This document shows positions 2,135 to 42,417 of a DNA stretch of 42,417 nt, in pieces. Location: positions 1 through 42,417 of IMG/VR virus record IMGVR_UViG_3300047649_000085, one strand, 5' to 3'. Below the pieces are notes generated by a model that saw only the letters and a list, made by a program, of their open reading frames with translations, was not told where the DNA came from and made no database searches. Source of the DNA: a virus. Numbering within the stretch: position 1 is the stretch's first letter; each line of letters starts with the position of its first letter. The translations under genes were made by a program, and so were the position numbers.

Positions 2135-2162
2135 TGGTGGACCCGGTGGGAATCGAACCCCA
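2135..2162 (-). repeat. Attachment core (attL or attR): orphan 3' end of a tRNA gene
   Basis: The minus strand reads as the T-loop, the acceptor 3' strand CGGGTCC, discriminator A and CCA of a tRNA. No D-arm, anticodon arm or acceptor 5' strand follows upstream. The T-stem 3' strand CCCAC fits a normal stem, but its 5' strand (TGGGG) no longer pairs fully, so tRNA identity probably stops within the T-arm near 2160. This is the usual scar of integration into a tRNA 3' end. The donor tRNA would begin with GGACCCG, and its amino acid cannot be read from this fragment. Confidence 0.82.
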
Positions 2163-2264
2163 TAACGCCCAATAGAATCAGTAAGTTGCTGATTTTTCAA
2201 GGTGTAAGAGGGCCAAAACTGCATAGAGATACAGGTCACTAGCACAATTTAGCACAAACTGGAC
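2163..2264. other. Prophage left-end intergenic segment with tandem AGCACAA repeats
   Basis: Between the attachment core and the first phage gene there is no open frame of note. AGCACAA occurs twice, at 2241-2247 and 2251-2257, with a period of 10 bp, so both copies lie on the same DNA face. Such helically phased short repeats beside an attachment core resemble arm-type integrase or excisionase sites. That reading is inference from position. Confidence 0.4.
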
Positions 2265-2432
2265 TCACTTTTTGCGCTCAATAATTTGGTCAGCGGCCAT
2301 CCGCGCAAGGCCCAACATAATTGAAGATTCCGTCAGAACAGCTCCAGGCCATTGAAGGGCGGCAGCTTGCCGGAGTTTCTCCCGGTCTGAATACGTCATC
2401 CTAACCGAGACAATCTCCGTTCGTTTCTCCAC
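2265..2432 (-). CDS. Small ribbon-helix-helix / MobC-like DNA-binding protein (putative)
   Basis: A 55-residue protein if translation begins at the GTG at 2432 (VEKRTEIVSVRM...). The frame can be extended upstream, but only through sequence overlapping the preceding gene, with non-protein-like composition. The pattern KRTEIVSVRMTYSDREKLRQ followed by a second helix fits a short beta strand plus two helices, as in CopG/MobC-type ribbon-helix-helix proteins, which bind DNA as dimers and often act as autoregulators or antitoxins. It lies immediately inside the attachment core and downstream of the 2507-2701 gene on the same strand. The fold assignment rests on pattern only. It could be a regulator of the left-end cassette or an excision accessory protein. 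Confidence 0.6.
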   Translation of the reverse strand: MEKRTEIVSVRMTYSDREKLRQAAALQWPGAVLTESSIMLGLARMAADQIIERKK

Positions 2433-2506
2433 CTTTTTATGGTGACCGCCGTAACCCTTCGATGGCAAGGAAACTGTTCGATGCGAATGTAAACACGAAG
2501 GGCGCA

Positions 2507-2701
2507 CTAAATCCGGCCCGCTTTCGCCTCCCGATCTGCCACAAAATCTAATACGCTCGCTAGCTCTTCCCGGCAAAGAGAGCGGTTGGGTGTGACAGCG
2601 CAAAGGCCGTCTTGGTTGAGAGTCACTTCGGCAACTTGAATGGAATTACTGAGAGCCGCCCAACGTTTTGGGTCAATCGGCTGAAAGCGCATATAAAGCA
2701 T
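2507..2701 (-). CDS. Small protein of unknown function, left-end cassette
   Basis: A 64-residue open frame starting at ATG 2701, with AGGGA about six bases upstream. The sequence (MLYMRFQPIDPKRWAALSNS...) has balanced composition, no membrane segment and no cysteine motif; I do not recognise a family. It lies upstream of the ribbon-helix-helix gene on the same strand and diverges from the plus-strand gene at 2882, so the 180-base gap between them is a shared control region. A GGCGCT-TG-AGCGCC palindrome sits 13 bases upstream of its start, which suggests repression near its own ribosome-binding site. Confidence 0.6.
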   Translation of the reverse strand: MLYMRFQPIDPKRWAALSNSIQVAEVTLNQDGLCAVTPNRSLCREELASVLDFVADREAKAGRI

Positions 2702-2881
2702 ATCCGTCCCTGTGGCGCTTGAGCGCCTTGTTGAAATGTGGAAAAGATGGATTAAATTCTCTACCTACAGTAACCCGCCAGATGTGACTATGGACACACC
2801 CAGAATGGCCCTTTAGAGGCGTTGACAACGAATCCCGTTGACATATACTCAAAACAACCCAGATTTGTGGAGCACATAATC
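2702..2881. promoter_or_regulatory. Divergent control region of the left-end cassette
   Basis: This region holds a palindrome GGCGCT-TG-AGCGCC at 2714-2727 next to the minus-strand gene. It also holds a good sigma70-type promoter pointing right: -35 TTGACA at 2822-2827, 16-bp spacer, -10 TATACT at 2844-2849. The promoter lies about 33 bases upstream of the ATG at 2882 and argues against an upstream TTG start at 2822, which would fall in the -35 box. No equally good leftward promoter was found by eye. Confidence 0.6.
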
Positions 2882-3193
2882 ATGTACGAAAAAGTGAAAC
2901 GAGACGAACTCCCAAAAAGAGAGCGCAAATCAGAGTATCGCTTTGAATCCACGCCAGCTTGGGAAGCCATGAAAGTGGATATTGATAACGGCCTTGCTCC
3001 AGATGAGGCGCTCAAGTACACACTCACGGATGAGGACAAGAAAAAGTACCGCATCCTTAACCGGCGCACCGTCCAACGATTCATACAGGAATACCTTGAA
3101 TCGAAGGGCAAACGCTATGCCAAGTATCAAGTCCTTTGCCGCCGTATTGGTGGTGTTGACCTCATCATTGTTGAATCGGGCGCAACCCGCTAG
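2882..3193 (+). CDS. Hypothetical protein with its own promoter (candidate lysogeny-expressed gene)
   Basis: A 103-residue charged protein beginning MYEKVKRDELPKRERKSEYR. The ATG at 2882 has GGAG nine bases upstream and follows a TTGACA-N16-TATACT promoter, so I prefer it to the upstream TTG at 2822. The central part alternates acidic and basic helices (DEALKYTLTDEDKKKYRILN, RRTVQRFIQEYLESKGKRYA) and could be a small DNA- or protein-binding helical domain. No known family is recognised. It is the only plus-strand gene in the left 28 kb of the prophage, lies at the end of the element and faces the fibre gene. These are typical traits of cargo genes expressed from an integrated phage. Function is unknown. 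Confidence 0.7.
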   Translation: MYEKVKRDELPKRERKSEYRFESTPAWEAMKVDIDNGLAPDEALKYTLTDEDKKKYRILNRRTVQRFIQEYLESKGKRYAKYQVLCRRIGGVDLIIVESGATR

Positions 3194-22102: not shown

Positions 22103-24007
22103 CTAAAGGTTGACCATTCTTGGTTTGGCCTTGATGAGTTTGGCGTTGTCCGGGTGAGTTGCACGGCCATAGGCCATGATCGAAGCAACCGCGCCGTCTA
22201 TCTTTTCAAGGCTTTTTAGTTTGTCCGGCATCTTCAAGCCGGTGTGGTTGGTTATCCAACGGAGGTTGTTTATCTGCCAAGCAAGCATGGGGTCAGCGGC
22301 ATGTGCTATCTCCCTCCGTCCCACTGCCAAAACAAAGTCATTACACGGGGCCGCATAGTTCATCATGGTCTGAGCAAACTTGACCACCTTTTCCTTTTTC
22401 AAGCCCGGTTGGAAAATCATGTCCCCGCGTCTTGACCAACCAAGCGGGATGCCTTTCTCTGCCTCCCCCTGGAGTATCGGGCGCTCACGTCCAGCAAGCA
22501 CACGGTTGATGAGTCCACCCGCCAAGGCTGGGTCATAAGCCAACTCACGAAGGTCAAAGTATGCGTTGAGGTTGAGAATCTCCCCAACGATGAAGTCATA
22601 GTCCGTGACGTGGCCGGGCGTGGTAATCAAGAAGCCTTGGTCACGCCAAAGGTCATACGGGACTTGGTGCATGTTGACGCGGGCCTCAATGTTGTCCGCT
22701 GGAATCCAGAACCAAGAAAGCAGCTCCCACTTTTCCTCTTCAGCCATTGGAGGAAACACTAGGACAAGAGCGTTGGTGTCATCCGTAGAGGCAAGGTCAA
22801 GCGCACTCAGACAGACACGTCCTTTTAGCCTCTTCATTGCCTCTGCTCTTAGCTCAACAGCTTCCCCTTGGCGAGCACACGCCCTCCAATCCTCCGGCTG
22901 AATAGCTTTGCTGAGTGAACCAACGCGAATGTTGAGGCTGTACCGTAAGAAATCATGCTTTGCTAGGGCGCTGTTTTTCGCCTCAAGGCATTCTTGTTGC
23001 ATGTCTGCCATCTTGACGGTGATGCCAAGATTGGGACACGCTTTCCGCCACTTCGTCTCATCATCCCAACGGTCACCCTCTTGGATGATGTTGCCCAAGG
23101 CGTCTTTTATCTCTTGGTCAATCTCCAGAATCCATGCAAAGAATCGGTCATCCGGGATAACGCCCGTGAGCACGCCTTCAGCGTAGTTGTCCAGCTCGTT
23201 ACAGATGGAAGTTGTGTCATCAGCGCTTGGTGCGGTTGTGATGAGCTGACCAAGTGGTTGAGTCCTTGACCGCATACCATAACGGAGGACTCCGTAAGGT
23301 CCGCGTCCGGGCCAAACATGGACTTCATCCCCAATCCAAAAGCTGATGTTTTTGCCTTCCATGCTTTCTTTGTCACGGGAAAGCGGCTTGGCTATCGCGT
23401 TTAGCTCCGGCACGCGGAGCATACGGCATGGTTGGTCCCCAACCTTCTTGATGACACCGCGTAAACCGGGCGTGCCGTCAATCATGGCCACGGCTTCATC
23501 AAATACGCGCCGGGCTTGGTCTTCCACGAGGGCCACGGTGTACACTTCGGCACCGCGCTCACGGTCATATTTCGTGTGGTACACAACCTGGACAGAGCCG
23601 CGTGCGGACTTGCCTGTCTTACGGGGCCAACGATCATACGCAATGCGAAAACGGCGCGGGTTGAGCGTTATGGGTTTCTTCTTGTTGGGCAATGTGATTT
23701 GAACGGCTTGCCGGTCACGCCACCCATAGAGGATTACGTCATGGGCAACTTGCCAATCCGCCATGGTCATGGGCGCGGGCCACTTGCTTGGCTGTACCGT
23801 TTCAAAGAGGCGGCAGAAACGGACAGCATCTTGAGCCGGGTCAAAGATGAAGGGGAAAGACGGGTCCTTCTTGCTCCGCTCCAGGTCAGCAACATGCCGC
23901 TCCACAGCAAGCCGGTTGAGACGGCATACCATCTCTTCACCGGACATGACACGGGAGATGTATTGCTCCGCTATGGCAACGTAGTCCCTCAACGAACGTC
24001 CCCACAT
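22103..24007 (-). CDS. terL: Terminase large subunit (Terminase_1 / HK97 gp2-like)
   Basis: 634 residues. The ATPase has the deviant Walker A RWPRKTGKS (126-134) and Walker B FWIGDEV with catalytic Glu228. The nuclease has Asp404 in ALDLAST and a C-terminal acidic residue in KIDGAVASIMAYGRA (about 604). The protein cuts and translocates DNA into proheads through the portal. Its first ATG lies inside the last codons of the zinc-ribbon gene (19-base overlap in another frame). GTGGGGA follows the ATG rather than preceding it, so initiation may depend on coupling. Members of this family usually work with P27-like small subunits, as found at 25170-25553. Confidence 0.94.
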   Translation of the reverse strand: MWGRSLRDYVAIAEQYISRVMSGEEMVCRLNRLAVERHVADLERSKKDPSFPFIFDPAQDAVRFCRLFETVQPSKWPAPMTMADWQVAHDVILYGWRDRQAVQITLPNKKKPITLNPRRFRIAYDRWPRKTGKSARGSVQVVYHTKYDRERGAEVYTVALVEDQARRVFDEAVAMIDGTPGLRGVIKKVGDQPCRMLRVPELNAIAKPLSRDKESMEGKNISFWIGDEVHVWPGRGPYGVLRYGMRSRTQPLGQLITTAPSADDTTSICNELDNYAEGVLTGVIPDDRFFAWILEIDQEIKDALGNIIQEGDRWDDETKWRKACPNLGITVKMADMQQECLEAKNSALAKHDFLRYSLNIRVGSLSKAIQPEDWRACARQGEAVELRAEAMKRLKGRVCLSALDLASTDDTNALVLVFPPMAEEEKWELLSWFWIPADNIEARVNMHQVPYDLWRDQGFLITTPGHVTDYDFIVGEILNLNAYFDLRELAYDPALAGGLINRVLAGRERPILQGEAEKGIPLGWSRRGDMIFQPGLKKEKVVKFAQTMMNYAAPCNDFVLAVGRREIAHAADPMLAWQINNLRWITNHTGLKMPDKLKSLEKIDGAVASIMAYGRATHPDNAKLIKAKPRMVNL

Positions 24008-24252
24008 TCATTGCAGACATAGAAGCCGCCCAAGCGGTTAAAGGACAGACCGCCGCACTTGATACATGTGCTTTTGGAGGTGGGCAGCCCGGAGCCGTCA
24101 ACCGCGTTTGCAGGAGACTCCGGGCCTTGGTTGGAGGGTACTTCTACGGCGGAGGGTGCGTCCACGGAGCGCGGACGCGGCTGGAAAACTTTGTCCCAAT
24201 TGTCCCGGTATTCGCGGGTGCTTGGTCGCTGCTTGTAATCATACTCAGCCAT
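23989..24252 (-). CDS. Small zinc-ribbon protein overlapping terminase
   Basis: 87 residues: a disordered Pro/Ser-rich N-terminal half, then CIKCGG...YVCNECG, a four-cysteine zinc ribbon at the C terminus. Its last codons overlap the terminase start by 19 bases, indicating translational coupling. It may recruit terminase to DNA or to the portal, or be an independent regulator. The family is not recognised. Confidence 0.72.
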   Translation of the reverse strand: MAEYDYKQRPSTREYRDNWDKVFQPRPRSVDAPSAVEVPSNQGPESPANAVDGSGLPTSKSTCIKCGGLSFNRLGGFYVCNECGDVR

Positions 24253-24376
24253 GCTATGTACTCTCCCCGGATGAGGAAACGCGCCAATGAGTCCCGTTAG
24301 TGCGTCCCGTTTCCTTGTCTATTTTGAGAGTACCGAGTAAAACAACCGAGTACGAAGTATGCCGGGAGGTTTTTTT
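24253..24376. promoter_or_regulatory. Intergenic control region upstream of the terminase-head block, with two pairs of 13-bp-period repeats
   Basis: GTCCCGTT occurs at 24291-24298 and 24304-24311, and ACCGAGTA at 24332-24339 and 24345-24352; each pair has a start-to-start distance of exactly 13 bp. A run of nine T follows on the plus strand near 24371-24379. No matching hairpin or good promoter hexamers were found by eye. Position between lysozyme and terminase makes it a candidate late-activator or terminase-binding site. Confidence 0.5.
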
Positions 24377-30138: not shown

Positions 30139-30405
30139 CTAGGCCGCCTTCCTCTTTGCTGAAGCCTTGCGCCGGTTGCTACGGACTTTGAGCGAGTGGT
30201 CACGCTTGCCCTTAACGCGGTTGCGCTTGCCGCCGCTAGCACCCACGAAGATGGTGCGGCAGATAGAGCCGGGATGTGACCGCAATAAAGGGATAGGCGG
30301 CCCGGCATAGCGTGTGGTGGGGACGGTTGCTTTTGTAGAGCTGATGAGGCCGATTGCAGCGGCGGCCAAAGATGCGATACGGCGGAGTGTTCCAAACATG
30401 GGCAT
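30139..30405 (-). CDS. Basic-tailed hypothetical early protein
   Basis: 88 residues. The N-terminal helix (MPMFGTLRRIASLAAAAIGL) is partly hydrophobic and could touch the membrane. The C-terminal third (GKRNRVKGKRDHSLKVRSNR and on) is strongly basic, suggesting nucleic acid or acidic partner binding. GGAAAG precedes the ATG. Overlapping longer frames in the region have noise composition. The assignment as a real gene rests on tight spacing with the next gene. Confidence 0.58.
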   Translation of the reverse strand: MPMFGTLRRIASLAAAAIGLISSTKATVPTTRYAGPPIPLLRSHPGSICRTIFVGASGGKRNRVKGKRDHSLKVRSNRRKASAKRKAA

Positions 30406-30435
30406 GACTTTCCAGGCGGGTTGCGCCTCACTTCG

Positions 30436-30789
30436 TTACTTGGTTGAGGTTGTCCGCATGAATCCGCCACGGTCTGAAGTGCCGCGCTCATGCTGTTGCC
30501 GCTGCTTGGCCCGCGTGGTGCGCGGTGAGTCATCGGCAGCCGGTGACCACGTGTTTATCCATTCGCGGTTGCACTCGGCACTGATGCAATGTCCGCCCGG
30601 CTCCGAGTGGTGAATGTGCCGCGCTTGGATGAGGTCAAGCAGCTCCGTATATGTTCCGGTGTCCTTCAGTTTGCGGAGAGCGCGTGCAAGCGTGTAGTCC
30701 ACGGCGCGGGTTGTGACGCCTAGTTCCGCCGCTATGTCCTCAATCGGCATCAAGTGTGTGATGGTGGGTGCAAGCGCGGCACTAGCCAA
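30436..30789 (-). CDS. Sigma-70 region 4-like helix-turn-helix regulator
   Basis: 117 residues from a TTG at 30789, chosen because GGGGAGG lies six bases upstream. The core MPIEDIAAELGVTTRAVDYT, LARALRKLKDTG is a sigma region 4 / LuxR-like helix-turn-helix (the LGVTxRAVxxTLxRAxxKL pattern). A short conserved C-terminal part contains HCISAECNREWINTW, then a disordered tail. As an early product it could redirect host RNA polymerase or activate late transcription. The gene overlaps the preceding one by eight bases. Alternative start: ATG at 30750. Confidence 0.72.
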   Translation of the reverse strand: MASAALAPTITHLMPIEDIAAELGVTTRAVDYTLARALRKLKDTGTYTELLDLIQARHIHHSEPGGHCISAECNREWINTWSPAADDSPRTTRAKQRQQHERGTSDRGGFMRTTSTK

Positions 30790-30985
30790 TGTGAGCCTCC
30801 CCAAGCATGTGATTGACCACGGCATTGGCGACTAAACGCGGCGCGGGTGGATACGCAATCCCCGTGGTGATGCCTGGAGATTGATGGAGGCAGTCAAGGC
30901 ACTCAGTAAAGAGCCGGTCAGTATTGACCCGCAAAACGGAGTGACGGTGTTTGCAAAAGAGCCGCTTCAATCGGTGTGAAACCAT
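30782..30985 (-). CDS. Small zinc-finger-like early protein
   Basis: 67 residues from ATG 30985 (MVSHRLKRLFCKHRHSVLRV); GAGGA is six bases upstream, whereas the ATG twelve bases earlier has its purine run too close. FCKHRH and ECLDC supply possible zinc ligands. It is the first gene of the leftward early operon, directly after the control region, a position often used by regulators or anti-host proteins. The family is unknown. Confidence 0.68.
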   Translation of the reverse strand: MVSHRLKRLFCKHRHSVLRVNTDRLFTECLDCLHQSPGITTGIAYPPAPRLVANAVVNHMLGEAHIG

Positions 30986-31034
30986 GTGGGTCCTCATTTC
31001 CTTTCACCAACAGAACACACAATAGCACGTCCCG

Positions 31035-31090
31035 TTTACAAATCCCAAATGTGATTTGTCACTTCACATTACAAAAAATCCTCATATAAT
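31035..31090. promoter_or_regulatory. Divergent early promoters and overlapping operators (genetic switch region)
   Basis: Rightward promoter: -35 TTCACA 31063-31068, 16-bp spacer, -10 TATAAT 31085-31090. Leftward promoter candidate: -35 GTGACA (31062-31057), 16-bp spacer, -10 TGTAAA (31040-31035). Between and across them lie two interlocked palindromes, ACAAATC-N8-GATTTGT at 31038-31059 and ATGTGA-N9-TCACAT at 31049-31069. They cover both -35 boxes and the leftward -10, as expected for repressor operators. GTCCCGTTT at 31029-31037 also occurs, as GTCCCGTT, near 24291 and 24304. The repressor itself was not identified. Confidence 0.72.
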
Positions 31091-31147
31091 CACGCGCGCG
31101 AAGCACTATTTTGAATCCCAATTACAGCGGACAAACGAATTTTACCT

Positions 31148-31178
31148 TGACTATAACGTCCGTAGATTCAATAAGATG
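31148..31178 (+). promoter_or_regulatory. Possible second rightward promoter
   Basis: TTGACT at 31148-31153 and TAAGAT at 31173-31178 are 19 bp apart, about 65 bases before the first gene of the rightward operon. The spacing is longer than ideal. The better promoter at 31063-31090 would give an untranslated leader of about 145 bases. Confidence 0.35.
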
Positions 31179-31242
31179 GCACGCTATTTCACTTGTGTGT
31201 AGGGCCGAATAAACGGCGCTCACAAAAGGGAGAGGTTGTCAA

Positions 31243-31704
31243 ATGGGTTTATCCGTACAGATTGATAGCGGCGGCAAGGACTTTGAAGCGGTCACAGAGA
31301 TGCTCCAACCGGCAGTATTGGCGGACATCGTGGACAAGGGGGTGGTCCCCAACAAATTCAAGCCCGGCACCACACAGCACAAGTGCTATTTCGTGTGGAT
31401 TGTTGCGGAGACGGACAGCGAAGACCGCAACAAGCGCGTCTTTCAGTCCTTCACCGTCAGCCTCAACGAGAAAGCAAGCCTCCGCAAATTCCTTGGGACT
31501 CTCGGTATCAAAGAGTTTCCCTCCGCGTTTGACCTGGACACGCTGATTGGCACCAAGCGCATGTTGGTCCTGTCTGAAGAGGACAGCAAGGACGGCGGCA
31601 AGCCCTTCCTCAAAATCACCGCAACCATGGCGCTCAAGAAGGGTCAGACCGCGCCGGACATCCCCGCTGACTTCGTGCGCAAGCAAGACCAAACGGAGGG
31701 ATGA
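31243..31704 (+). CDS. Conserved-looking early phage protein of unknown function (possible recombination/ssDNA accessory)
   Basis: 153 residues with GGGAGAGG upstream of the ATG. The sequence runs MGLSVQIDSGGKDFEAVTEM, ADIVDKGVV, FKPGTTQHKCYFVWIVAETD, SLNEKASLRKFLGTLGIKEF and LIGTKRMLVLSE. This beta-rich pattern recalls phage proteins encoded beside recombination genes that are often suggested to bind ssDNA, but I cannot assign a family securely. It is the first gene of the rightward operon and is coupled to endonuclease VII (ATGA). Confidence 0.78.
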   Translation: MGLSVQIDSGGKDFEAVTEMLQPAVLADIVDKGVVPNKFKPGTTQHKCYFVWIVAETDSEDRNKRVFQSFTVSLNEKASLRKFLGTLGIKEFPSAFDLDTLIGTKRMLVLSEEDSKDGGKPFLKITATMALKKGQTAPDIPADFVRKQDQTEG

Positions 31705-34668: not shown

Positions 34669-35228
34669 TGCTCTTGATTGGTTTTGGACATCGGGCGCGT
34701 CAAGGCAAAAACACTGCCGCTGACGCCATTCTCAACGCTTGCCCGTTGGAAACACAGGTCCGGCAATATGGCTTTGCTGATGCGCTCAAGAAAGAGGTCC
34801 GTGTTGCGTGCTCGATTCTAGGCGGCCAATACAACCTCATTGAGCAATACAAAGAGGCCGGGCTGTTGCCGGAGTGGGTCCACTTTGAAGAGCCAAAGCC
34901 GCGCACTTTGCTCCAGCATTGGGGCCAAGACCGGCGCAACAAGGACCCGCTGTATTGGGTCAAACGGCTCTTCAAGACTATTGACGCGCATGAGACGGAA
35001 GTTGCCCTCATCACGGATGTGCGCTATCCGAATGAGCGGGATTACATCCGGTCACGCGGCGGCATTTATGTGGAGGTGGTCAACACGGGCAAGACAGATG
35101 TTGCGGTCCATGAGCATGACAGTGAGACGGCGCTTGACGGCACAGACTATGACTTCATCATCTCTGCCGCCTCCGCCGCTGATTGCCAAGCACAGGCTGT
35201 GGACATCTTCAGAAAGGTGAGCGCATGA
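34668..35228 (+). CDS. Deoxynucleoside monophosphate kinase
   Basis: 186 residues. The P-loop GFGHRARQGKNTAADAI is near the N terminus, followed by LLQHWGQDRRNKDPLYWVKR and ALITDVRYPNERDYI, the features of phage dNMP kinases (T4 gp1 superfamily). It converts dNMPs to dNDPs for DNA synthesis, fitting its place before the DNA polymerase genes. Coupled TGATG at the start and ATGA at the end. Confidence 0.87.
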   Translation: MLLIGFGHRARQGKNTAADAILNACPLETQVRQYGFADALKKEVRVACSILGGQYNLIEQYKEAGLLPEWVHFEEPKPRTLLQHWGQDRRNKDPLYWVKRLFKTIDAHETEVALITDVRYPNERDYIRSRGGIYVEVVNTGKTDVAVHEHDSETALDGTDYDFIISAASAADCQAQAVDIFRKVSA

Positions 35229-36046
35229 GTTACTTGTTCCCCGATCTGGAGACGTTCTCGGAGCTGGACATCAAGCGCGTCAGCTTGGACCGCTATGCCA
35301 AGCACCCAAGCACACGAATCCTCATGTGTGCTTTTGCCTTCGATGATGGCCCGGTTGAGTTGTGGCAAGAGGGAGACTCAGCCGCAAGCCTGGAGGCGCT
35401 CAAGCGTGATATGCGGACACATACCAATGTGCCGTGGAATGCAGGATTTGAGCGCAACCTAACACGGCGCGTGTGGAAGCTGTACCCACTCAAGTGGCGT
35501 GATGCCATGGTGGACGCGCTATATGCCGGGCTGCCCGCTGGACTCAAGGATTGCAACCGTGTGCCCTACTTCGCAAATGAGGCGGAGACATCCAAGGAAA
35601 CTTTGCTCATCAACAAGTTTTGCAAGCCACAGAAGGACGGGAGTGTCCGCAACCGTCACACGGACCCGGAGGATTGGGACGCCTTCTGTGCGTATTGCAA
35701 AGCGGACGTGAATGACACGCGCCTCATCTTTCAATGGCTCTTGAAGCGTTTTGAGTTGCCGGAGCGTGAGTACAGGGCTTGGCTGATTGACCAAGACATC
35801 AATGAGCGCGGCTTGCCCATGGACCGGCTCTTGACCTATCGCGCATGGGAGGAAGCACAGCGGCTCCAGATTCGTGAAAACCGGCGCTTGGTTGAATTGA
35901 CCGGCCTGGATAATCCCAACTCCACGGCTCAGTTGTTGCCGTGGCTCAAAGCGCGTGGGTATCCGTACACATCACTGAGCAAAGAGCTAGTCAAGAAGGC
36001 TCTGTCAGAGGACCCGGATGCGGAGGTTATTGATGTCGATGACTAA
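35225..36046 (+). CDS. DNA polymerase A, exonuclease part (separate polypeptide)
   Basis: 273 residues from ATG 35225 (overlap ATGA, AAAGGTGAG upstream). DnaQ-type proofreading motifs: ExoI Asp7/Glu9 in PDLETFSE, ExoII Asn72/Glu76 in WNAGFERN, ExoIII Tyr157/Asp161 in YCKADVND, so the nuclease looks active. After residue 190 the sequence continues as the polymerase thumb-side connector (DQDINERGLPMD, LKARGYPYTSLSKELVKKAL) and stops at IDVDD. In related phages this continues uninterrupted into the polymerase domain. Here a second gene starts in another frame. Confidence 0.9.
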   Translation: MSYLFPDLETFSELDIKRVSLDRYAKHPSTRILMCAFAFDDGPVELWQEGDSAASLEALKRDMRTHTNVPWNAGFERNLTRRVWKLYPLKWRDAMVDALYAGLPAGLKDCNRVPYFANEAETSKETLLINKFCKPQKDGSVRNRHTDPEDWDAFCAYCKADVNDTRLIFQWLLKRFELPEREYRAWLIDQDINERGLPMDRLLTYRAWEEAQRLQIRENRRLVELTGLDNPNSTAQLLPWLKARGYPYTSLSKELVKKALSEDPDAEVIDVDD

Positions 36047-37313
36047 CGAAGCAAGACAGGCGCTCCGGCTCCGGCTGCTTGCGAACAAGGCGTCAATCAA
36101 GAAGCTGCCGAAGATTCTTGAGCAACTCAGCTCTGATGACAGGCTCCGGCACTTGTTTGCTTTCTACAAAGCCCATACAGGAAGGTGGGCAGGACGCGGG
36201 GCACAGCCTCAGAACCTCAAAGCCGCACGCACCAAGGAAGAGAAAGCCATGGTGGGCACGGTTATCAAGCTACTGGAGCAAGGGGAAGAGGTGGCGGACC
36301 TGGACGCGGTGTCCCTGGCCCTTCGTTCTCTCATCACGGCACCCAAGGGCAAGAAGCTGGTTTATGGGGACTTCAAGTCCGTGGAGAATCGCGGGCTTGC
36401 TTGGGCTGCCGGTTGTGAAGCCATGATGAAGGTCTATGAGGAAGGCAAGGACCCTTACATTGACTTTGCCGCCCGGATGGAGGGCTGTGATTACGCGGAC
36501 GTAACGGCAGAGATGCGGCAGCAAGCCAAGCCCGGCACTCTCGGGTGTGGCTTTGGCCTTGGAGGTGGTCAGCTCATCCGCAAGTGTAAGTGTGCATGTA
36601 AACACACGTGGAATGTCCCCGGTGACTTTGAGGGCCTTGCACAGTGTCCAGTGTGCTCCAAGTCTGTGGCTCCGGGCCTTATCACCAAGACCGGGCTTTG
36701 GCGCTATGCGGAGATGATGGGCATTGACCTCAGCCAAGAGCAAGCCAAAACGCAAGTGGAAGCCTTCCGGGACACCTTCATGGAGGTTGCGCGTTGGTGG
36801 TATCACCTGGAGGACGCCTTTGCCCAAGCGTGCTTGAAGCGGCGCAACCAATACGTCACCTCAGACCTCAACGGCGTGCGTGCTTGTCACCTTGTCTTTA
36901 GGTATCAGGACCCGGCTTTACGCATCGTGCTCCCAAGCGGGCGTGAGTTGGTGTATCCCAATGCCTATGCCCGGCAAGAGCGCAACCGCTATGGCTCACA
37001 AAAGCTAACCATCGGCTTTGAGAGCGAGCGCGGGCACGGGTGGGGATTACAGCACACCTATGGTGGAAGGCTCTGCGAAAACATCGTCCAGGCAATCGCA
37101 CGTGACTGCTTGGTTGAGGCCATGTTTTTGGTTGAGCAAGACTCCGGCCTGGAGATTGTTGGACACGTACATGATGAGTTGCTCTGTCTTGCTGATGAGT
37201 CAGACGCAACCGCACTTGACCGGCTCAACGGATACATGAGCGTAACTCCGCCGTGGGCACCCGGCCTTATCTTGGGTGCTGACGGACACGAAGGGAAGAG
37301 GTACTCAAAATGA
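36033..37313 (+). CDS. DNA polymerase A, polymerase part (separate polypeptide) with zinc-ribbon insertion
   Basis: 426 residues from ATG 36033, with GGAGG (36022-36026) six bases upstream inside the end of the exonuclease gene; the overlap is 14 bases. Motif A is VYGDFKSVENRGLAW (Asp113), motif B region is RQQAKPGTLGCGFGLGG (Arg162, Lys166), motif C is VGHVHDELL (His380-Asp381-Glu382). The N-terminal AHTGRWAGRGAQPQNLKAA is the normal family linker. Between motif B and the rest is an extra CKCACKHTW...CPVC segment (about 185-208), a probable zinc ribbon in the fingers. With the 273-residue part it would form a two-subunit replicative polymerase. Confidence 0.9.
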   Translation: MSMTNEARQALRLRLLANKASIKKLPKILEQLSSDDRLRHLFAFYKAHTGRWAGRGAQPQNLKAARTKEEKAMVGTVIKLLEQGEEVADLDAVSLALRSLITAPKGKKLVYGDFKSVENRGLAWAAGCEAMMKVYEEGKDPYIDFAARMEGCDYADVTAEMRQQAKPGTLGCGFGLGGGQLIRKCKCACKHTWNVPGDFEGLAQCPVCSKSVAPGLITKTGLWRYAEMMGIDLSQEQAKTQVEAFRDTFMEVARWWYHLEDAFAQACLKRRNQYVTSDLNGVRACHLVFRYQDPALRIVLPSGRELVYPNAYARQERNRYGSQKLTIGFESERGHGWGLQHTYGGRLCENIVQAIARDCLVEAMFLVEQDSGLEIVGHVHDELLCLADESDATALDRLNGYMSVTPPWAPGLILGADGHEGKRYSK

Positions 37314-37942
37314 AAGCAGCAATTCTCACTTGGCTGAAAGCTAACGCGGCCAAGCATGTTGAGGCCATCATCATTGCTTCTGCTCTTATCTTCGTTGGGC
37401 GCATGTGGCTCCAGGAGCATGACGCCCGCACGAAGGCTGACGCCACAGTCAAGACAGCTCAAGTCCAGATTGACACACTTGCCAAACAACAGACGGCCAC
37501 AGCACAAGCGGCCAAGGTTGAGGTGACCATCCTTCAGAAGCAAGCGGACGCTGTGAAGACAGCACCGCAAGCTGTCCAGGCTCTACAGAAGGACCCGGAG
37601 GTTAAGGCTGTGTTGCCGTCTCTCACCACGGTGCCGGACGCACCGGACACGGTGAAGGTCAACGCCCTGGACTTGTTTAAAGGCGTTAACCAATGTGAGC
37701 AAGACGCGGTGAACGTGGGCGCATGTACGAAAGAGCTGACCATCCAAAAGCAGATAACTACAGAGAAGGATGTCCAGATTGTTGCGCTCAAGGCCAAGCC
37801 TAAGTTTTTGCACCGCCTTGCCAAGGCGGGCAAGGTAATTGGCTGCTCAGCGGCGGGCGGCTTTGTTGGAAGTTATCTCAAAGGTGGTCAAGGTGCCGCA
37901 ATCGGGGCCGCCGCTGGAGCGGGTATATGCCAAGCATTTTAG
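37310..37942 (+). CDS. Membrane protein with coiled coil and C-terminal glycine zipper
   Basis: 210 residues. An N-terminal transmembrane helix (VEAIIIASALIFVGRMWL) is followed by a long Ala/Gln/Lys coiled coil (TVKTAQVQIDTLAKQQTATA and on), a middle with two cysteines (QCEQDAVNVGAC), and a glycine-zipper tail (AAGGFVGSYLKGGQGAAIGA). Glycine zippers pack membrane helices or form pores. It is coupled to the polymerase gene (ATGA), and its end overlaps the HTH gene. Spanin-like, phage exclusion and toxin-like roles are all conceivable; no family is recognised. Confidence 0.78.
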   Translation: MKAAILTWLKANAAKHVEAIIIASALIFVGRMWLQEHDARTKADATVKTAQVQIDTLAKQQTATAQAAKVEVTILQKQADAVKTAPQAVQALQKDPEVKAVLPSLTTVPDAPDTVKVNALDLFKGVNQCEQDAVNVGACTKELTIQKQITTEKDVQIVALKAKPKFLHRLAKAGKVIGCSAAGGFVGSYLKGGQGAAIGAAAGAGICQAF

Positions 37943-38139
37943 ACAAACCGGCAATGACAGTGCCGGAGGTTGCCGCGCTAACCGGACTATCCCGGCAGAC
38001 AATCACACGGATGTTTGAAGGAGAGCGGGGCGTCCTTATCTTGGGCCGTCCCGAGTCCAAGCACAAACAGCGGTATAGAAGTATCCGCATACCACGCGCC
38101 GTTTATGAGCGCGTCATTGGGAGGCTTGAAGTCAGATGA
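37927..38139 (+). CDS. Helix-turn-helix protein, excisionase/MerR-like
   Basis: 70 residues. The winged-helix pattern MTVPEVAALTGLSRQTITRM, FEGERGV, and RSIRIPRAVYERVI is that of HTH_17/excisionase-like proteins. GGAG lies upstream within the previous gene. It may be the directionality factor for the integrase or a regulator of this operon. It is coupled to the HD gene by ATGA. Confidence 0.82.
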   Translation: MPSILDKPAMTVPEVAALTGLSRQTITRMFEGERGVLILGRPESKHKQRYRSIRIPRAVYERVIGRLEVR

Positions 38140-41277: not shown

Positions 41278-42417
41278 TCAGTCAGCCCAAGTGCCCGTGA
41301 CGAGCGAGTCAAGCCGGTCTTGGCGGCCTTGCACCCACTTGGCATAGTGTTTCTCAGTGGTCTTGATGGACGTATGACCCAACAGCTTGGAGACTTCCTC
41401 CATGGGTACGCCCTTCTGTAGCAGCTCCACGGCAAAGGTGTCACGGAGCCGGTGAGATGTGGCAAAGCAAACACCGTCCAGCTTGGCGGCCTTAAATACC
41501 GGGGCCACATAGTACCGGCTCCACTTTCGAGTCAGTGTCTCAATCAGCTCCCCACTCCAAAAGAAAAATTTTGGGTCTTTGTTCGGGACCGCTAACAGCT
41601 CTTGCGCTATGGAGGCCGGAATTGGGACACAGACATGGACGCCCGTTTTCTGGCGGCTTGTCACAACCCGATACAACCCGGAGTGCTCCAACTCAGCCCG
41701 CTTCAGCGTCAATGCGTCCTCAATTGCAAGGCCGGAATACCGCATGAGCTGAAACAACGCCCGAGCACGGGCGGCACGGACGGAGTGCTTGACCACGCCG
41801 GGGACCGCTGCCAAAAGCCGGGCGTATTCGTCCGTGGATAGTGGCATGGTGGGGACCTCATCAATTTTGACCTTGGGTAACTGGGGGATGCGTTCCAACC
41901 ACTGTGCCTCATAGCAGTACCGGAGAAAAGAGCGGCAGCGTTCACGCACTTTGCTCCGGGTGGTGCTGCTTGGGTAAGCGCTCTCCCACGTGGCCGCGTA
42001 TCCCGTGAGCAACTCCCGGCTCAATCCCTGGACGGTAAACGTGCCGCGCCCTTCACAATAGGACCGGAGCCGGGCCAACTCACGCTCATACTTCCCAAGC
42101 ACGTCCTTGCTGATGTCCTGGACGGACTTGTCCTGAAGAAATACCGTGACAGCATCCGGCAAGAAGCGGCCCGCTTCCGTCTCTGCCTCTGGCGTTGGGG
42201 TCTTTCCGCTGAGTTGGTCTTCAAGTTTCCGCTTGGCTTTCTCTGCCTCTTCCCATGAGCGGGAGCCGGTCTTCTGCCGGTACTGCTTGCCGTTCAACGT
42301 CCATCGGAGGTGCTTAGGACATTTACACTTCCGGGAAAACTCTTCCCCGGAGTACCGGCACGGCTTTTTATCAATGAATCCATGACGGACAAAGATGGTG
42401 ATTACGGGCGTGCTCAT
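41278..42417 (-). CDS. int: Tyrosine-type integrase
   Basis: 379 residues as far as visible; the first ATG coincides with the window edge. An N-terminal zinc element (C20...CKCPKH, 31-36) precedes an arm-binding AP2-like region, a core-binding domain (about 85-175) and the catalytic domain. Catalytic residues are Arg226 (RYSGLAIEDAL), Lys257 (RQKTGV), His322-x-x-Arg325 (SHRLRD), His348 (LLGHTSIKTTEKHY) and Tyr358. It integrates and, with a directionality factor, excises the phage at the tRNA site. It is read toward the phage interior. The intact tRNA should lie just upstream, outside the window. Confidence 0.94.
   Translation of the reverse strand: MSTPVITIFVRHGFIDKKPCRYSGEEFSRKCKCPKHLRWTLNGKQYRQKTGSRSWEEAEKAKRKLEDQLSGKTPTPEAETEAGRFLPDAVTVFLQDKSVQDISKDVLGKYERELARLRSYCEGRGTFTVQGLSRELLTGYAATWESAYPSSTTRSKVRERCRSFLRYCYEAQWLERIPQLPKVKIDEVPTMPLSTDEYARLLAAVPGVVKHSVRAARARALFQLMRYSGLAIEDALTLKRAELEHSGLYRVVTSRQKTGVHVCVPIPASIAQELLAVPNKDPKFFFWSGELIETLTRKWSRYYVAPVFKAAKLDGVCFATSHRLRDTFAVELLQKGVPMEEVSKLLGHTSIKTTEKHYAKWVQGRQDRLDSLVTGTWAD

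Follow-up and report, generated by a model that had tools for sequence, protein, structure and literature searches.

Which protein holds an early switch silent when no recognisable repressor gene lies beside it? In the lambda-type CI/Cro immunity region, divergent early promoters are overlaid by dyad operators at both -35 positions. The locus described here resembles that region in having divergent early promoters and dyads over both -35 positions, but differs from it in that no repressor gene lies between or beside the promoters and no CI helix-turn-helix (HTH) or S24 domain is found in the record. The window analysed is an entire IMG/VR virus record of 42,417 bases (G000), and it is a temperate phage integrated as a prophage of a soil bacterium. 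Leftward genes (terminase, lysozyme, NlpC/P60 and others) occupy approximately 3.2–31.0 kb and rightward replication genes 31.2–41.2 kb, and the right end is formed by the integrase:

41278–42417, minus strand: tyrosine integrase (PF00589, E = 4.8e-16), read inward from a start codon at base 42417, where the record stops

Two overlapping genes (35183–36046 and 36018–37313) together make up the DNA polymerase A region; as the relatives have the same split, a sequencing frameshift in this record is not the cause.

Related phage records

Five related virus records (G001–G005) were compared with the window. G002 has a 127-nt exact end overlap and is thus a complete circle, and the ends of G001 have about 40 nt in common with one difference, as judged by eye, with one open reading frame crossing the join. 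G003 and G004 are partial. The integration-site flank, which G004 lacks, is included in G001, G002 and G005, and all three carry the gene cassette found at the left end of the window. In G004, the primase-like gene and the genes after it lie on the rightward strand (L016, 10500–10700), which indicates that the divergent junction has moved there. Between its integrase and the attachment side, G005 has a gene for a sigma factor of the ECF type (sigma-70 regions 2 and 4; L022:16199–16753). Scans of genome_contigs with the 103-aa left-end protein and with the polymerase gave no match and no intact attR.

Promoters and dyads of the early switch

The following features make up the switch:

30998–31242: intergenic switch between the leftward structural operon (first ORF 30782–30997, minus strand) and the rightward replication operon (first ORF 31243–31704, plus strand)
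31019–31048, minus strand: PL, TTGGGA-N18-TATTGT, assigned by eye and aligned with the PL of the relatives
31038–31059: dyad 1, ACAAATC-N8-GATTTGT, perfect 7-bp arms, spanning the PL -35 position
31048–31070: dyad 2, AATGTGA-N9-TCACATT, perfect 7-bp arms, spanning the PR -35 hexamer
31063–31090, plus strand: PR, TTCACA-N16-TATAAT, 11/12 consensus positions, the sole promoter match of the scan in 30400–31400

An earlier note on this DNA had placed interlocked palindromes over divergent early promoters in 30436–31090, and both dyads were confirmed and overlap, with PR matching the consensus at 11/12 positions and PL read by eye, the consensus scan having reported no canonical PL. Positions 30436–30997 are coding, and the operators are confined to the final 60 bases of 30436–31090. 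It is proposed that 30998–31242 is the early lytic switch of the phage, with PL and PR back to back; as the dyads cover both -35 positions, a bound dimeric regulator would shut both operons. When 30998–31242 was shuffled with dinucleotides preserved, at least one such dyad arose in 158 of 1000 shuffles and two in 11 of 1000, so that a single dyad is not rare and the pair is moderately above chance. When up to three mismatches are allowed, the window holds five copies of the dyad 1 pattern, the four others all having three mismatches, and two of the dyad 2 pattern, the second having no fewer than three; since the other copies are no better than this, the dyads are specific to the switch. The same divergent junction is present in G001, G002 and G005, and the dyad sequences are not conserved among the relatives.

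A short element is conserved at PL:

31023–31032, minus strand: conserved element GGACGTGCTA, overlapping the PL -10
24298–24307, minus strand: second intergenic copy GGACGCACTA, upstream of the gene preceding terminase

The element, GGAYGYGCTA, was found at the PL of the window, G001, G002, G004 and G005; over four lineages, 9 of 1000 shuffles were equally good for the 10-mer, and other lengths gave 11 to 179. It also occurs at further intergenic spots in G002 and G001. In the relaxed form GGAYGYRCTA it marks the PL of five phages; its intergenic sites in the window number only two, and none was found at the promoter of gene A, described below. It overlaps the -10 and may thus be a promoter element instead of an operator. 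The gene preceding terminase (23989–24252), with the second PL-type element upstream of it, shows weak zinc-ribbon similarity.

Search for a CI/Cro-type repressor

Pfam searches covered 39 window proteins, NCBIfam and PHROGs searches a smaller protein set, and six-frame searches of the entire record were made for HTH_3, HTH_19, S24 and CI_repr. CI_repr and HTH_19 had no match above cut-off in the six records G000–G005, S24 (PF00717) was absent from all six while control genomes gave matches, and HTH_3 had no match above cut-off in G000–G004. The only CI/Cro-type match in the window is a below-cut-off HTH_3 score on a 70-aa Cox-like protein (37927–38139), and neither circular relative, G001 or G002, has a CI-family match. 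The statement that no CI- or Cro-like protein is evident thus holds for the window by both family and six-frame searches, and the switch repressor is proposed not to be CI-like.

A standard repressor that binds the dyads might still be encoded in the segment from the integrase start (42417) to attR, which lies outside the record, given that the record stops exactly at the integrase start codon and that the corresponding interval of the relatives comprises several hundred bases with small genes. However, the interval genes tested with Pfam in G001, G002 and G005 include no CI-type HTH, the ECF-type sigma factor being what G005 has there, and in the complete G002 the searches for S24, CI_repr and HTH_19 gave nothing and HTH_3 scored only below cut-off; a repressor in this interval is considered quite unlikely.

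Proteins encoded on the PL and PR transcripts

The candidates nearest to the switch, together with one distal gene, are as follows:

30782–30997, minus strand: 71-aa zinc-ribbon-like protein, first gene of the PL operon (C-x2-H ... C-x2-C, by eye)
30436–30825, minus strand: 129-aa protein with a sigma-70 region 4-like HTH (PF08281, E = 4.3e-6, 26.7 bits against a cut-off of 25.7)
31243–31704, plus strand: first gene of the PR operon, NGO0469-like replication initiation family (NF046043, E = 2.5e-18, below cut-off)
37927–38139, plus strand: 70-aa Cox/excisionase-like HTH protein, distal in the PR operon (phrog_66, E = 3.5e-5; HTH_17 below cut-off)

The zinc-ribbon-like protein has no family match; a relative was found in G005 by tblastn and a similar protein in G004 by eye. 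The product of 31243–31704 is 57–72% identical to the proteins of the relatives. The earlier note had named a zinc-finger-like and a sigma region 4-like protein as the nearest regulators. The sigma-4 part of this is borne out by a Pfam match above cut-off, while the zinc-like part is a Cys/His pattern only, and the list had left out the 70-aa Cox-like HTH protein. A role of the sigma-4-like protein in general regulation was not supported, the protein having no relative in G001–G005, viral_contigs or the phage records.

Genes on the PL or PR transcripts cannot by themselves hold PL and PR silent. The zinc-like and sigma-4-like proteins are encoded by the first genes of the PL operon and the sigma-4 match is real, but the PL transcript carries both genes, that for the sigma-4-like protein lacks a relative in other records, and a role as activator of later genes would fit better, so that either protein is highly improbable as the lysogeny regulator. 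A repressor, or dual repressor-excisionase, role of the Cox-like protein at the dyads is likewise improbable. The families to which it is similar (phrog_66, labelled in PHROGs as excisionase and transcriptional regulator, and the Cox-like families) unite both functions, it is conserved in G001–G004, and it has the weak CI/Cro-type HTH score; against this, its gene, some 6.8 kb into the PR operon, would be silent with PR off, and no relative was found in G005.

The attachment region and the left-end cassette

The left end of the window holds host DNA, the attachment region and the cassette:

1–1212: host DNA, N-terminal fragment of an HsdM-type methylase, truncated by the record edge
1872–1959: tRNA-Ser, in host DNA beside the HsdM-type fragment and attL
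2135–2161, minus strand: tRNA 3' fragment, probable attL core (the tRNA caller gave no whole tRNA here)
2240–2258, plus strand: direct repeat TAGCACAATTTAGCACAAA, likely integrase arm sites
2265–2432, minus strand: 55-aa protein, predicted ribbon-helix-helix (RHH) fold (AlphaFold pLDDT 83), with relatives in G001 and G002
2507–2701, minus strand: gene B, 64-aa protein, divergent from gene A, 27–35% identical to proteins of G001, G002 and G005
2822–2849, plus strand: gene A promoter, TTGACA-N16-TATACT, 11/12 consensus positions
2882–3193, plus strand: gene A, 103-aa protein, predicted winged-helix-like, 55–56% identical in G001, G002 and G005

The tRNA 3' fragment and TAGCACAATTTAGCACAAA are likely, as read from the sequence, to represent attL with integrase arm sites. 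Repeats resembling TAGCACAATTTAGCACAAA occur in the interval between the integrase gene and gene B in G001 and G002, and in G001 this interval also holds a tRNA-like 3' end. In the circles of G001 and G002, the cassette adjoins the integrase gene with attachment-site-like repeats between them; in G005, gene A lies beyond the integrase gene in unchanged order. Co-transcription from gene B into the integrase gene was considered and dropped, a terminator-like hairpin lying 3' of gene B in G001 and G002.

The gene A promoter scores 10/12 in G005; in G001 and G002, TTGACA with a weak -10 was seen by eye, and the consensus scan found no gene A promoter in either. Substitutions in gene A fall mostly at the third codon position, which indicates purifying selection. 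The window protein has no Pfam, NCBIfam or PHROG match, and the phage records contain no relative, giving one chance-level match. The earlier note had suggested searching the structure of this 103-residue protein for HTH folds. In the AlphaFold model (four sequences, mean pLDDT 75), the elements follow the order H-H-E-H-H-E-E, and the predicted winged-helix order H1-S1-H2-H3-S2-S3 is found as H25–36, E43–48, H50–56, H61–74, E82–89 and E92–99, but the fold matches are weak and mixed: Foldseek against the PDB gave nothing under E 0.2, and the best structural matches, Stn1 C-terminal (Z 5.7) and, further down, CtsR (Z 3.9), stand among other folds. Gene A is the best candidate for the repressor.

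In the model of the 55-aa protein, helices 14–27 and 35–54 follow an extended start, the strand not being formed in the monomer model. RHH proteins are mostly top-ranked with VIA-align (best Z 4.4), whereas Foldseek gave nothing under E 3.9, so that RHH proteins come first with the second aligner only; family matches to NikA/TacA1 are weak and below cut-off. With its extended start and two helices, the modelled product of 2265–2432 is assigned to the RHH superfamily. The protein is encoded in three of the four flank-bearing phages (the window, G001 and G002), and G005 gave only an E = 0.003 match over a short stretch in another frame. Its gene has moved in place and strand relative to gene A: in the window it is a minus-strand gene that follows gene B, and in G001 (L018, 9680–9853) and G002 (L019, 9684–9857) a plus-strand gene ahead of gene A.

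Proposed mechanism of lysogeny control

It is proposed that the repressor comes from the cassette at the attachment-site end (2265–3193), that is, from gene A and the 55-aa RHH protein, with gene A expressed from its own strong promoter. Among the DNA-binding-type genes found, these two lie off the PL and PR transcripts and could be expressed with both promoters off, and the cassette is favoured as the repressor source because its DNA-binding-type genes lie outside these transcripts. The cassette would act in trans, over a distance of about 28 kb in the prophage and of about 12 kb or more across the integrase gene in the circle, one of its proteins presumably occupying the dyads, and the PR-made Cox-like protein may serve as an opposing factor that aids excision. 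That cassette proteins maintain lysogeny in trans on PL and PR has, in our judgement, an even chance of being correct.

The weak point of this proposal lies in the promoters. Autoregulation is expected of such a repressor, and its operator would be common to its own promoter and the switch, but the gene A/gene B promoter region shares no motif above chance with PL/PR in the window, G001, G002 or G005. The suggestion that the left-end cassette takes part in lysogeny control accordingly fares well as far as the genes are concerned, which are conserved, lie beside the integrase gene and attachment site in relatives and encode DNA-binding-type proteins, while action of their products on the switch is putative, no such common motif having been found. 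The stretch from an attachment site to the tail genes can hold accessory genes, and the cassette, which has this location, may instead encode accessory proteins (an antitoxin-like RHH protein, a recombination factor), the switch being set by a host regulator or by PL/PR products. Antitoxins are among the best RHH matches, and the lack of an operator common to the cassette and PL/PR points the same way; on the other hand, each of the three relatives that include the flank has kept gene A and a partner toxin was not found, and this explanation is regarded as unlikely.

Comparison of cassette-based control with known systems

It has been reported that F55 of SSV1, a 55-aa protein of lysogeny maintenance listed as RHH, binds an 11-nt sequence at several promoters (PMC9608457). 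The present phages are alike in having a 55-aa RHH protein and a short asymmetric element at several promoters; unlike in this archaeal virus, the element is rare in the window, G005 has the element and no recognised RHH protein, and operator binding is putative. The repressor of TipsytheTRex, an L5/Cluster A mycobacteriophage, is a monomer that binds an asymmetric site, and the Cluster A repressor carries two DNA-binding domains and has over twenty sites (PMC9283540). Both systems have asymmetric sites that follow the direction of transcription and lie at a promoter as well as in short gaps between genes, most clearly in G002, but the window has two intergenic sites and no relative of the Cluster A repressor was identified. 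The predicted model of the 55-aa protein also shares the RHH fold of P22 Arc (Z 3.0 to 1baz), a likeness seen in the fold and not in the sequence, and a repressor role here is putative. The parallels with SSV1 F55 and TipsytheTRex serve as working analogies and do not imply membership. To call the lysogeny control a new type, as was suggested earlier, is too strong, as RHH lysogeny repressors (PMC9608457) and asymmetric-site repressors (PMC9283540) are already known.

More specifically, and more tentatively, gene A may found a new family of small winged-helix repressors that are encoded at the attachment site and silence a distant, repressor-less switch in trans, with the RHH protein as co-regulator in some phages; this is possible but somewhat doubtful. 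The proposal also yields a pair of short proteins and a defined stretch of target DNA on which it could be tested directly. If the proposal is true, a lineage of temperate phages would control dormancy without any CI-type repressor, with control genes that sit at the integration site and go unrecognised by present family libraries, which would help to account for temperate phages in which annotation fails to reveal a repressor.
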